Source: Acidobacteriota bacterium (lineage in GTDB: Bacteria > Acidobacteriota > Terriglobia > Acidiferrales > UBA7541). Taken from it: 64,000 nucleotides of DNA. Each line of letters opens with the position of its first letter. Within the stretch, counting starts at the first letter, position 1. A program made the position numbers and the translations under genes. The DNA is taken from contig JAKASX010000004.1 of NCBI GenBank assembly GCA_021818865.1, forward strand, positions 1 through 64,000, given 5' to 3'. Shown here one piece after another: positions 12,503 through 63,643 of this stretch. Below the pieces are notes generated by a model, which ran no database searches, was not told the origin of the DNA, and was given only the letters and a program-made list of their open reading frames with translations.

Positions 12503-14638
12503 ATGGCGAATGAAGTACGAGTGAATATTGGCGGGCGGGACCTGATTTTGGAAAACGGGCGTGTGGCTCGCCAGGCGGACGGTTCCGTGCTGGCGCGATA
12601 CGGCGATACGGTGGTGCTGGCGACCGCCTGCATGGACCGCAGAGCCACGGAAAAGGATTTTCTGCCACTGACGGTGGATTACCGCGAATACACGTATTCG
12701 GCGGGAAAAATTCCCGGTGGCTTTTTCAAGAGGGAAGGCCGGCCATCCGAGCGCGAAGTGCTGGTGAGCCGGCTGACCGACCGGCCGATCCGGCCGCTGT
12801 TTCCGGAGGGGTGGCGACAGGAGACGCAGATCATCACGATGGTGATGTCGGCCGACAGCGAAAACGATCCCGATGTGATCGGAGTGGTGGGGGCGTCGGC
12901 GGCGCTGGCGGTATCGCCGATTCCGTTCGCCGGACCGATCGGCGCGGTGCGCGTGGGCCTGCTGAACGGCCAACTGGTGGCGAACCCGACGGTGGCGGAG
13001 CAGAAGACGAGCCGGCTGAACATCGTGGTGGCGGGCACGGAGAGCGGGATCGTAATGGTGGAGGCGGGATCGCTGGAGGTTTCCGAGGACACGATCATCG
13101 ACGCGCTGGAATTCGGCCACGCGGAAATCCGCAAGATCGTCGCGGCGATCAACGAACTGGCGGCGAAGGTAGGCGCGAAGAAAGTGGCCGCGCCGGCAGT
13201 TCCGTTCGACGAGGAGCTTTACAAGCGCGTAAAGAATGAATTCGGGGCCCGGCTGGAGGATGCGCTCGACACCTCGAAATATCCCAAGCGCGAAAGCTAC
13301 GTGCTGGTGGATGCGCTGAAGGCGGAATGGACTGGCGGTTTCCCGGAAACGGAGATGGAAAAGCGCAAGCTGGCTGGCAGTGCGTTCGAAGCGCTGCTCG
13401 AGGAGATTTTCCGCGAAGATGTGCTGGTGCGGAGGCAGCGGCCGGACCGGCGCGCGTTCGACCAGGTGCGGCCGATTACCTGCGAAGTGGGCATGCTGCC
13501 GCGAGTGCACGGCTCGGCGCTCTTCACGCGCGGCGAAACGCAGTCGCTGGCGACGGCGACGCTGGGCACGAAGGAAGACATGCAGCGGCTCGACCTGCTG
13601 TTCGAGGAAGAGGCGTTCAAGCGCTTTATGCTGCATTACAATTTCCCGCCGTTCAGCGTGGGCGAAGTGAAACCGTTGCGCGGACCGGGCCGGCGCGAAG
13701 TGGGACACGGCGCACTCGCCGAACGGGCGCTGATGAACCTGCTGCCGGCGGAAGCGGATTTTCCATACGCGATCCGTGTGGTGAGCGACATTCTGGAATC
13801 GAACGGATCGAGCTCGATGGCGACGGTCTGCGGCGGCTCGCTGGCGCTGATGGATGCCGGCGTGCCGGTTCGCTCGGCTTGCGCAGGCATCGCCATGGGA
13901 CTGGTGACCGGAGACGACGGCAAATATTCGATTCTGACGGATATCGCCGGCGCCGAAGACCATTACGGCGACATGGATTTCAAGGTAGCCGGCACGCGCG
14001 AAGGCATCACCGCGCTGCAGATGGACATCAAGGTGACGAATGTGAGCATCGCGATGATGCGCGAAGCGCTCGAACAGGCGCGGCGGGCGAGGCTGCACAT
14101 TCTGGACATTATGCAGAACGCGCTTCCCGAACCGCGGAAGCAGGTTTCTTCCTATGCGCCGCGGCTGATCACGCTGACGATTCCCACCGACAAAATCCGC
14201 GACCTGATCGGGCCGGGCGGGAAGAAAATCCGCTCGATCACCGAATCGACCGGGGCGAAGATCGACGTGCTCGACGACGGAACGGTGCACATCTATTCCG
14301 CCGATTCGGCTTCGGGCGACGCTGCATTCCGGCTGGTGAGCGAAGTGACGGCCGTGCCGGAGATCGGCAAAACGTACCTGGGGAAAGTGGTGCGGCTGGC
14401 CGAATTTGGCGCGTTCGTCGAACTCTTCCCCGGCACCGACGGCCTGCTCCACATCAGCGAAGTGGCCGAGCACCGGATCAAGAACGTTCGCGACGAACTG
14501 AAGGAAGGCGATCAGCTCCTGGTGAAGGTGCTTTCGATCGAAGGCAATCGCATCCGGCTCTCGCGCAAGGCGGTGCTGCGCGAACAGCGGGACAAGCAGC
14601 GCGGTCAGCAACCGGAAGCGGCGCAGCCCTCGGCGTAG
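12503..14638 (+). CDS. pnp: Polynucleotide phosphorylase
   Basis: Phosphorolytic 3'-5' exoribonuclease, a core RNA-decay enzyme. At 711 residues it has full length and the standard order: first RNase PH domain (ATACMDRRATEKDFLPLTVDYRE early on), an all-helical linker, second RNase PH domain with the catalytic region (SSMATVCGGSLALMDAGVP, then GDMDFKVAGT with the metal-binding aspartates), a KH domain around residues 553-610 (IRDLIGPGGKKIRSI) and an S1 domain around 620-695 (GKVVRLAEFGAFVEL). The start ATG is preceded by AAAAGGAAACG. It pairs with rpsO upstream. The stop is followed by a perfect 10-bp hairpin. Confidence 0.98.
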   Translation: MANEVRVNIGGRDLILENGRVARQADGSVLARYGDTVVLATACMDRRATEKDFLPLTVDYREYTYSAGKIPGGFFKREGRPSEREVLVSRLTDRPIRPLFPEGWRQETQIITMVMSADSENDPDVIGVVGASAALAVSPIPFAGPIGAVRVGLLNGQLVANPTVAEQKTSRLNIVVAGTESGIVMVEAGSLEVSEDTIIDALEFGHAEIRKIVAAINELAAKVGAKKVAAPAVPFDEELYKRVKNEFGARLEDALDTSKYPKRESYVLVDALKAEWTGGFPETEMEKRKLAGSAFEALLEEIFREDVLVRRQRPDRRAFDQVRPITCEVGMLPRVHGSALFTRGETQSLATATLGTKEDMQRLDLLFEEEAFKRFMLHYNFPPFSVGEVKPLRGPGRREVGHGALAERALMNLLPAEADFPYAIRVVSDILESNGSSSMATVCGGSLALMDAGVPVRSACAGIAMGLVTGDDGKYSILTDIAGAEDHYGDMDFKVAGTREGITALQMDIKVTNVSIAMMREALEQARRARLHILDIMQNALPEPRKQVSSYAPRLITLTIPTDKIRDLIGPGGKKIRSITESTGAKIDVLDDGTVHIYSADSASGDAAFRLVSEVTAVPEIGKTYLGKVVRLAEFGAFVELFPGTDGLLHISEVAEHRIKNVRDELKEGDQLLVKVLSIEGNRIRLSRKAVLREQRDKQRGQQPEAAQPSA

Positions 14639-60667: not shown

Positions 60668-61519
60668 TTAGTGGCCGAGGCCCGAAACCGTTAGATACCA
60701 GTGCACCAGAGGACTGCCGAGGAAAATCAGGAAAATCCCGGCGATGCCGAGAAAGCTGCCGAACGGCAGTTCGTAATCGCGGCCTTTGCCGAATCCCCAA
60801 ACGGCGATCGCGCCGACCACGCTTCCGAGAATCGATCCGAGCATCAGCATGGCGATCGCGCGGCGCACGCCCAGAAACGCGCCGGCCATCAACATCATTT
60901 TCACGTCGCCCAGTCCCATGCCCTCGCGCCCGCGCAGCCGAAAATAACCTTCGGCGAATAGCCACAGCAATCCGCCCGCGACGAGCGCGCCCAGCGCGGC
61001 ATCAGCCAGCGCAATGGCCCATCCCGGCGCGGCCAGGTTCATCCGGCCATCCAGAATCCACTGTGCGAATCCGTCGCTCGCTGGCAGAAACGGGCTGAAC
61101 GCCAGACCCGCCGCAAGGCCGAAATAGTTCACTCGGTTCGGCAGAATGCGCTCGTGGAAATCGGTGAAAATCAGCACCAGGAGCAAAGAGCAAAAGAGCG
61201 CCCATTTCGCGCCGGCGAGCGTGACGCCGAATTGGTGGTAGCAAGCGACGAACATCACTCCGGTAAGCAGTTCGACCGCGGGATAGAGCAGGGAAATGCG
61301 ATTGCGGCAGGCTCGGCAGCGGCCGCCGAGCATCAAGTAACTGACGACGGGGATATTGTCGCGTGCGCGAATGGGCGTGCCGCACTGCGGGCAGCGGGAG
61401 CGCGGCGTCACCACCGATTCATGCTGCGGCAGCCGGTAGATGCAGACGTTCAAGAAGCTGCCGATCACCAGGCCGAATAGGAACGCGAAAAGAGAAATCA
61501 CCGCTTGACTCTGCCACAA
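60668..61519 (-). CDS. pilD: Prepilin peptidase
   Basis: Inner-membrane aspartic protease and N-methyltransferase that cleaves prepilin/pseudopilin leaders. The 283-residue protein has an N-terminal FGLVIGSFLNVCIYRLP, a zinc ribbon CPQCGTPI...GGRCRACRNRIS, and the catalytic aspartates in FTDFHERILP and GLGDVKMMLMAG, all in the order of the A24 family. Eight membrane segments are expected. It is the enzyme needed by the pseudopilin gene at 27.3-28.2 kb, 33 kb away. It is a single gene on the minus strand, convergent with menG. Confidence 0.95.
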   Translation of the reverse strand: MWQSQAVISLFAFLFGLVIGSFLNVCIYRLPQHESVVTPRSRCPQCGTPIRARDNIPVVSYLMLGGRCRACRNRISLLYPAVELLTGVMFVACYHQFGVTLAGAKWALFCSLLLVLIFTDFHERILPNRVNYFGLAAGLAFSPFLPASDGFAQWILDGRMNLAAPGWAIALADAALGALVAGGLLWLFAEGYFRLRGREGMGLGDVKMMLMAGAFLGVRRAIAMLMLGSILGSVVGAIAVWGFGKGRDYELPFGSFLGIAGIFLIFLGSPLVHWYLTVSGLGH

Positions 61520-61700: not shown

Positions 61701-62279
61701 ATGCTGGCAACCGAAGTGAAATCGGGAATGGCGGTGCGCGTCGAGGGGCGCGCGTGCAAAGTGGTGGAAGCGGAAATCAAGATGCGGGCCGGGCAGATCA
61801 ATAATCTGGTGAAATTCCGCCTGCGCGACCTCGATACCGGCCGTTTGAGCGAACTGCACGTGCGGCCCGAGGAGAGATTCGAGGAACTCGATCTCGACCG
61901 CCATACGATGGAGTTTCTCTACTCCCAGGGCGATACGTACACCTTCATGCGTCCTGATACGTTCGAACAGATCGACCTGACGGGTGACGATGTGGGTCCC
62001 GGTCGCGCGTTCTTGCAGGAAGGCATGTCCCTGCCCGTGGAATTTTTCGAAGGGCGGCCGGTGAGCATCGCGTTCCCGCCCACGGTGGAATTGCGCGTCG
62101 AGCAAACTGCGCCCGCCGTGCATTCGCAACAAGACAGCACGTGGAAGGAAGCCACGCTGGAAAACGGCGTGGTGGTGAAAGTGCCGCTTTTCATTGATGA
62201 AGGCGAAACGGTGCGCGTCGAAACAGAAACCGGGCGCTACATCGAGCGCGTTCGCGCCGAGCGCAAGCGCGGCGCTTGA
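61701..62279 (+). CDS. efp: Elongation factor P with unusual loop tip
   Basis: Relieves ribosome stalling at polyproline stretches. The 192-residue protein has all three EF-P domains: an N-terminal KOW-like domain (MLATEVKSGMAVRVEGRACKVVEAE), a central OB domain (FLYSQGDTYTFMRPDTFEQIDL) and a C-terminal OB domain (ENGVVVKVPLFIDEGETVRVETETGRYIERV). The loop that normally reads PGKGGA or PGRGGA, with the modified Lys/Arg at its tip, reads AGQINN here with Gln32 at the tip. The domain-III KGDT-type loop is also replaced. ATG 61701 has AAGAAGG upstream and TACAAT (61,661-61,666) could be its -10. No modification enzyme gene is adjacent. The family call is sure. Confidence 0.94.
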   Translation: MLATEVKSGMAVRVEGRACKVVEAEIKMRAGQINNLVKFRLRDLDTGRLSELHVRPEERFEELDLDRHTMEFLYSQGDTYTFMRPDTFEQIDLTGDDVGPGRAFLQEGMSLPVEFFEGRPVSIAFPPTVELRVEQTAPAVHSQQDSTWKEATLENGVVVKVPLFIDEGETVRVETETGRYIERVRAERKRGA

Positions 62280-62530: not shown

Positions 62531-63643
62531 ATGAACTGGGGTACACCTCCCTGGACGGTTGATTTCCGGCCCGAGCCGAGGCCGCTGCCTGCGTCGGCGG
62601 ATTTTGCGGTGATTGGCGGCGGCTTTTCCGGTTTGGCCGCGGCGGCATGGCTGCGGAAAATCGCTCCAGACAAGACCGTGGTCCTGCTCGAAGCCTCGCA
62701 CGTCGGTTCCGGCGCCAGTGGGCGCACCGGCGGTTTGGCGCTTTCGGACGTGGCCGTTGGGCCGCTCGAAGGAACCGAAGACGTGCTCGATACTTATCGC
62801 GAGACGCTCGCGGAACTCGGTGTCGCGAGCGAGCTGGCCTTCGAGGGAGTCTACGAAATCGGGCGCGCCGTCGGCCTGCGCGATTCGCCTATCGTTTGGG
62901 AGGACTCCGGCACGCTTCGCGTAGTCCATGAAGTGCCCGGCGGAACGGTGGACGCGGGCAAAGTGGTGAGCGGACTCGCGCGCGCCGCCGCTGGCCTGGG
63001 CGCTGCGATTTTCGAGAATACGCGAGTCGAGAACGTGGAATTCGGCTCGCCCCACGCGCTCCAAACTTCGGCGGGAACGCTCTGCGCCGGGAGGCTGTTC
63101 CTCGCGACGAACGCGCAATCGGCAGCGCTTTCCGGCCTGTCGGAAACTTCGCAGGCGAAATTCACGCTGGCGCTCATGACCGAGCCGCTCGCACCCCGCG
63201 CCCTGGAATCCCTGGGCCTAGGCTCAGGGAAGGCGTTCTATACGGCCGATTTGCCGTATCTGTGGGGAAGGCCGATGCCCGATGGCTCGGTGATGTTTGG
63301 CAGCGGTCTGGTGGATCTGGGCAGCGACGCCGAACTGGCCGCGCTCGATATCGCCCAAGGCGTAGCTGCGGGCCTGTTCACCAGCCTCGAATGGCGCGTG
63401 CGCGGGCTGCATCCGGCGCTCGGGAAAGTGCAATTCTCCCATCGCTGGGGCGGTCCGATCCGCTTCGGCCAATCGTGGCAGCTCTTTTTCGATTGGCATC
63501 CGCGCTCGCACGAGGCGCTCGTCCTCAATGGCCTCGGCGGTGACGGCGTGAGCTTTTCGGTTTACCTGGGGCGATGGGCGGCGGAAACGCTGGCCGCCGG
63601 GCGAGAGCTCCCGTCCTGGGGCAAAATCGCGGAAACGGACTGA
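62531..63643 (+). CDS. FAD-dependent oxidoreductase (DAO family)
   Basis: A 370-residue flavoprotein of the D-amino-acid-oxidase-like (glycine oxidase/GlpD-related) family. The N-terminal Rossmann motif VIGGGFSGLAAAAWLRK and a second-sheet VVLLEASHVGSGASGRTGG are plain, with later DGSVMFGSGLVDLGS and GLHPALGKVQFSHRWGG regions and a C-terminal GLGGDGVSFSVYLGRW. Members oxidise amines or amino acids, often secondary amines. The start at 62531 follows AAGAGGAAG. It stands alone, ahead of the guanine-deaminase-like gene on the opposite strand. Substrate cannot be named. Confidence 0.88.
   Translation: MNWGTPPWTVDFRPEPRPLPASADFAVIGGGFSGLAAAAWLRKIAPDKTVVLLEASHVGSGASGRTGGLALSDVAVGPLEGTEDVLDTYRETLAELGVASELAFEGVYEIGRAVGLRDSPIVWEDSGTLRVVHEVPGGTVDAGKVVSGLARAAAGLGAAIFENTRVENVEFGSPHALQTSAGTLCAGRLFLATNAQSAALSGLSETSQAKFTLALMTEPLAPRALESLGLGSGKAFYTADLPYLWGRPMPDGSVMFGSGLVDLGSDAELAALDIAQGVAAGLFTSLEWRVRGLHPALGKVQFSHRWGGPIRFGQSWQLFFDWHPRSHEALVLNGLGGDGVSFSVYLGRWAAETLAAGRELPSWGKIAETD

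Follow-up and report, generated by a model that had tools for sequence, protein, structure and literature searches.

On the standard account, elongation factor P (EF-P) combines one residue at the tip of a loop with an enzyme that extends it. The locus considered here, at positions 61,701–62,279 on the plus strand of the window (the whole 64,000-nucleotide stretch of Acidobacteriota DNA that was analyzed), was put forward in a preliminary description as an EF-P lacking Lys or Arg at this tip, which raises the question of whether the protein is the housekeeping EF-P of its bacterium or a paralogue, and of whether it could work unmodified. We favor, as a call that is about evenly balanced, the view that the gene, termed efp2, encodes an unmodified extended-loop factor (EF-P2) of a distinct Acidobacteriota subfamily, which would work beside the main EF-P. 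The observation itself was confirmed and its interpretation was partly supported.

The reading frame of efp2 is open throughout its 192 codons, and its assignment is based on the ORF, Pfam matches, alignment and tree. The product belongs to the EF-P superfamily, as evidenced by three domains in order, each exceeding its Pfam cut-off: the KOW-like domain I (EFP_N, PF08207; residues 3–59, 61,707–61,877; 35.8 bits, cut-off 23), the OB domain II (EFP, PF01132; residues 69–121, 61,905–62,063; 67.1 bits, cut-off 27) and domain III (Elong-fact-P_C, PF09285; residues 129–183, 62,085–62,249; 70.4 bits, cut-off 25), all on the plus strand. With 175.9 bits it falls below the cut-off of the canonical EF-P equivalog TIGR00038 (185.8), while passing that of the broader PRK00529 (174.5 bits, cut-off 161). 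Ordinary EF-Ps are its nearest solved relatives by sequence, and two models of EfpL (YeiP) gave 110 and 95 bits with cut-offs of 216 and 264, the latter being TIGR02178 (95.3 bits, cut-off 264.05). The predicted structure, built from 22 sequences, has a mean pLDDT of 89, with a weaker loop region (blocks of 82 and 79). In Foldseek, the 20 top-ranked PDB matches all represent EF-P or EfpL (entries or models), and the top TM-score among the listed matches was 0.77, to the EfpL structure 8s8u. Pairwise rmsd to most EF-Ps was high (5–9 Å), which was taken as an effect of domain orientation.

The family is a faster-evolving and divergent one with a patchy distribution, as might be expected if efp2 were a decaying duplicate without function. 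This is scarcely credible, however, given dN/dS values of 0.07–0.25 over the ten pairs among five congeneric copies, and the 16 invariant and 23 nearly invariant columns retained across 22 divergent members. The dN/dS values show that efp2 is under purifying selection and is a real gene. The minus-strand ORF that overlaps it is conserved less, at 67, 44 and 35% vs 92, 69 and 61% for the plus strand in the three genomes with a match.

A search for a second efp, which the preliminary description had proposed, found a single EF-P match in the genome from which the window comes (G000; 95% complete, 165 contigs), but two in each of four congeners, one 69–92% and the other 34–38% identical to the window protein, with two different models in agreement. 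The single match would fit a species in which EF-P2 has taken over from the main EF-P and serves as the sole copy, a reading that we regard as very unlikely since all four congeners carry both genes. These include the nearest relative (G003), whose paralogue is 92% identical to the window protein and whose main efp (L062, 4019–4576) is flanked by a purB-like ORF and folD-coaE-like ORFs, all named by eye. The coaE-like match in G000, at 13,776–14,108 and from a search that scored 40 of 232 candidates, reaches the last base of contig C97 (14,108 nucleotides long), and the best match to the purB-like protein is 32%. Because a whole segment, rather than one gene, appears to be absent, the main efp is probably missing from this metagenome-assembled genome (MAG) through an assembly gap. 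By comparison of the sequences, the efp2 product is a paralogue, separate from the housekeeping EF-P, an option that the preliminary description had raised and that the congeners support, as does a clade of the paralogue's own in the trees described below.

Searches of named genomes with peptide patterns located relatives of the paralogue at 26 loci (of which L113, a weak partial match, was not used), all in Acidobacteriota MAGs with titles including Terriglobia, Terriglobales, Bryobacterales and Candidatus Sulfotelmatobacter. When a profile built from ten paralogues was run on the class Terriglobia, 387 of 399 genomes gave a match, and by eye the paralogue was counted in 59 of the 399, at 212.7 bits or more, the next score being 184.0. 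At least two EF-P matches were present in 56 of these 59 genomes, with one in each of G000, G196 and G211. Reading of the loops revealed a third, EfpL-type copy in three of the 59 (G132, G215 and G337). Among the 340 genomes without the paralogue, 122 have at least two EF-P matches (by eye, including a few fragments), and all eight of those read were of the EfpL type. Mutual exclusion between the paralogue and EfpL is thus suggestive, with counts uncorrected for kinship, and was kept out of the evidence. Beyond the class, a 22-row profile run on 149 genomes of the phylum added two paralogue-like sequences, in G518 and G500, the remaining loops read in that search being of the main type. One of these two sequences, from other classes, is Gln-tipped (L191 in G500, GVAQMAG) and one Lys-tipped (L187 in G518, GGGKLGG), and each is accompanied by a second EF-P match in its own genome.

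The alignment comprised 161 sequences: 74 distinct paralogues, 82 main-type sequences including E. coli EF-P, three EfpLs, and two frame-broken pieces of L112 that were excluded from the groups and the tree; L123 and L154 were assigned to the paralogue group by hand. A quick tree used a random main-type subsample of 28 plus E. coli out of 84 (a number that includes L123 and L154), and a careful tree, with both loops removed, one of 22 plus E. coli out of 82. On the careful tree a single branch, supported at 100/100 and present in 100% of 200 bootstrap trees, separates all 74 paralogues from the rest. The main-type and EfpL rows fall outside this clade, and the three EfpL rows, which have long branches, do not form one clade. 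The efp2 product does not group with EfpL; it shares with the paralogue subfamily the clade, an extra loop residue, the lack of Pro at position −2 from the tip, and a domain-III loop of the H/R-x-Q type.

The loop tip had been read as AGQINN with Gln32 at its apex, and the translation, the family alignment and the model all bear this out. In the model, strands lie at residues 17–27 and 36–43, and the β3-β4 loop therefore has eight residues (28–35, MRAGQINN; 61,782–61,805, plus strand), one more than in EF-P, with G31-Q32 mid-loop. The tip sequence is A30-G31-Q32-I33-N34-N35, and the tip codon, CAG, occupies 61,794–61,796 (plus strand). Counted over 159 sequences, the stretch bounded by the conserved Gly16 and Gly47 columns measures 31 residues in all 74 paralogues, 30 in all 82 main-type proteins and 32 in the three EfpLs. 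Pairwise alignment can slip by one, because the paralogue loop has an extra residue; an off-by-one reading that makes a Lys or Arg the tip ('GAGQAGG' aligned with 'GKGQAF') was rejected, the Gln32 column itself holding Lys or Arg in 60 relatives. Lys38, which had been named as a possible alternative, is in strand β4, away from the tip position, and alignment with EF-P, EfpL and Acidobacteriota EF-Ps keeps Gln32 at the tip.

At the Gln32 column, the 74 paralogues divide into 58 with Lys, 14 with Gln and two with Arg, all five paralogues of the window's genus having Gln, whereas the 82 main-type proteins have Asn (75), Lys (5) or Arg (2), and the three EfpLs Arg. The residue at −2 is Pro in none of the paralogues vs 81 of the 82 main-type sequences. 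The efp2 product, with its Gln-tipped loop of eight residues, has neither the canonical seven-residue loop with a Lys or Arg tip nor the EfpL-type loop, two residues longer than that of EF-P, with an unmodified Arg tip (PTARG). Within the aligned subfamily, which is mostly Lys-tipped, Gln is a derived or alternating state. By the same alignment, the subfamily-wide extra loop residue, the missing −2 Pro and the rewritten loop that would meet the E-site codon are more distinctive than the Gln tip.

The absence of Lys or Arg at the tip is real in this protein, but is not peculiar to it. The main EF-P of the four congeners is itself Asn-tipped, and the Asn tip of Acidobacteriota main-type sequences sits in a TPGN loop; with Asn in 75 of 82, the housekeeping EF-P of the phylum mostly also lacks a modifiable residue. 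Like EF-P2, this Asn-tipped protein occurs in the same genomes without Lys or Arg at the tip. It differs in its seven-residue loop, its −2 Pro and its GAT/KAT-type domain-III loop, and is 31–38% identical to the window protein among the relatives searched. The Gln tip, though present, likewise loses its standing as an oddity, since natural Gln and Asn tips are in print (PMC6544042; PMC11611912): natural tips listed in the latter source are Asn, Gln, Met, Ser and Gly, and in the former's survey of 1166 EF-Ps, Asn tips always came with a −2 Pro and Gln and Met tips never did. The Gln tip alone is thus already known, and some EF-P2 proteins may be among the published sequences.

Whether the tip is modified bears directly on the favored reading. 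A lysine-modified EF-P would pair a Lys tip with its enzyme, while here the tip is Gln, and EpmA was found above the cut-off in none of 15 genomes, ten of them from the window's order; the best matches to the EpmA model (122–247 bits) lie in frames of 511–622 aa, which is the size of lysyl-tRNA synthetase. EarP was likewise found in none of the 15, a weaker result because it relies on a Pfam model for which no control genome gave a match. The Arg-type EF-P that EarP rhamnosylates also lacks the −2 Pro, as described in PMC6544042. EF-P2 differs from it in that Arg tips occur in two of the 74 paralogues and EarP was found in none of the genomes searched.

The preponderance of Lys is the best evidence for the opposite view of the tip, as a modification site. 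Lys-type EF-P2 could then be modified by an unknown enzyme, with the Gln clade having lost the modification and become a weaker or different factor. A candidate might be sought in a deoxyhypusine-synthase-like (DHS-like) gene (PF01916), a type suggested in PMC6544042 as an EF-P modifier and present in 386 of the 399 Terriglobia genomes, G000 included. It occurs, however, irrespective of whether the paralogue is there and of which tip it has; being nearly class-wide, it says nothing about the paralogue and was set aside as an explanation. The −2 Pro that the same source ties to Lys-type modification is absent throughout the subfamily, and the changes at the tip are repeated on the trees rather than amounting to a single loss. 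On the careful tree the tip state requires at least seven changes overall and five between Gln and not-Gln, and on the quick tree the Gln rows need at least three even if the well-supported branches alone are counted, with L150 (Gln) nested in a Lys clade and L103 likewise. An obligate modification of Lys is hard to reconcile with such flipping among Lys, Gln and Arg, and this repeated exchange is the best sequence evidence against the tip as an obligate modification site. We consider modification of the Lys type by such an enzyme unlikely, and the best reading of the sequences is that EF-P2 lacks modification. The DHS-like matches fall at two very different score levels.

The surroundings of the gene are consistent with the earlier remark that no modification enzyme is adjacent, as none of the known EF-P modification enzymes was recognized among neighbors named by eye. 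According to the ORF lists, all five genomes of the genus have a divergently oriented prepilin-peptidase-like ORF (60,668–61,519, minus strand, in the window) next to efp2 and a FAD-dependent-oxidoreductase-like ORF (62,531–63,643, plus strand, in the window) downstream of it; both were named by eye and are placed outside the system. No neighbor is widely conserved over 73 distinct loci with five ORFs on each side, the top family occurring at nine. Co-location with a modification enzyme was rejected, no neighbor family being common to many of the loci, and an SDR-like neighbor (4/73) was considered as a candidate for YmfI, itself an SDR, and dismissed as too rare and too distant. The context of efp2 is not conserved and so gives no clue to its job. 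In a few Terriglobia, a nicotinate phosphoribosyltransferase-like and nicotinamidase-like pair (by eye) directly precedes efp2 on the same strand, each member being near efp2 at six of the 73 loci (examples L082, L085, L126, L131 and L140).

The second departure from EF-P is in domain III, where loop I, residues 141–149 (62,121–62,147, plus strand), has the sequence HSQQDSTWK where EF-P has the GDT motif; alignment upholds the earlier claim that a KGDT-type loop had been replaced. In E. coli EF-P, as described in PMC11611912, the equivalent loop G144-G148, with D145 and T146, touches bases 1 and 2 of the E-site codon. No GDT-type motif is present in the efp2 product and no GDT among the paralogues, in which position 141 (window numbering) is His in 64 and Arg in 10 of 74, position 143 Gln in 63 and position 145 Asp in 71. 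The string QQD occurs in at least 44 of the 74, the loop being mostly H-x-Q-Q-D.

Taken with its tip, this loop invites comparison with known systems. EF-P2 resembles the canonical EF-P (TIGR00038/PRK00529) in its three domains, length and predicted fold, and differs in its score below the TIGR00038 cut-off, longer loop, lost −2 Pro, Gln tip and missing GDT-type motif. To EfpL (YeiP; TIGR02178) it is alike as a second EF-P beside a main one, in its extended loop, in having no known tip modification and, for the efp2 model, in the best TM-score among the listed PDB matches. PMC11611912 describes EfpL as having an unmodified Arg tip on an extended loop, records it from Acidobacteria too and treats the loop extension as the feature that sets EfpL apart from every other EF-P. 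The extension is of two residues in EfpL but one in EF-P2, EfpL has Arg in a PTARG loop where EF-P2 has Gln or Lys, EF-P2 forms a clade apart from the EfpL rows, and all three Acidobacteriota EfpLs aligned retain a domain-III motif of the G-[DN]-T or G-A-S type. Identity of the efp2 product with EfpL is ruled out by its TIGR02178 score, loop and tree position. The best reading is that EF-P2 is convergent with EfpL and would act on a subset of stalls.

In the mechanism that we propose, EF-P2 would, like EF-P, enter the ribosome between the P and E sites at a stalled peptidyl-tRNA-Pro. Its longer loop could carry the tip side chain far enough for modification to be dispensable, as has been proposed for EfpL, and the rewritten domain-III loop may read other E-site codons, or the same ones less strictly. 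EF-P2 and the main EF-P would thereby divide XP(P)X stalls between them. A more far-reaching version is tentative and in our judgment somewhat doubtful: EF-P2 would be an independent second modification-free EF-P, its one extra loop residue making the tip interchangeable among Lys, Gln and Arg and its E-site reader rewritten, which shares the work with an unmodified Asn-tipped main EF-P, so that proline motifs are translated without any EF-P tip modification. As the tip and E-site-reader loops both depart from EF-P throughout the subfamily, and the gene is present so patchily among Terriglobia, EF-P2 might instead act away from proline stalls in another ribosome-linked or regulatory job (e.g., initiation, non-proline stalls or competition with the main EF-P). 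The retention of three domains and a predicted tRNA-like fold, however, and the fact that EfpL keeps its proline function despite a changed loop, as reported in PMC11611912, make this a rather improbable alternative.

EF-P2 is a further extended-loop subfamily and, if it works, would offer a natural Lys, Gln and Arg series on one scaffold, testing the contribution of the tip side chain and bearing on whether loop length substitutes for modification. No description of a distinct Acidobacteriota EF-P paralogue whose loop is longer by one residue was found in the open-licence papers searched. There is also a problem of annotation, in that curated models would give EF-P2 the plain name of elongation factor P, and where the assembly is incomplete, as in this MAG, it could be mistaken for the sole EF-P copy. 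A similar observation concerns the Acidobacteriota EfpLs, in which the PTARG loop was present in all 11 read (L177, L179 and L216–L224): these score around 113–137 bits, below the TIGR02178 cut-off, and that model would therefore not name them EfpL.
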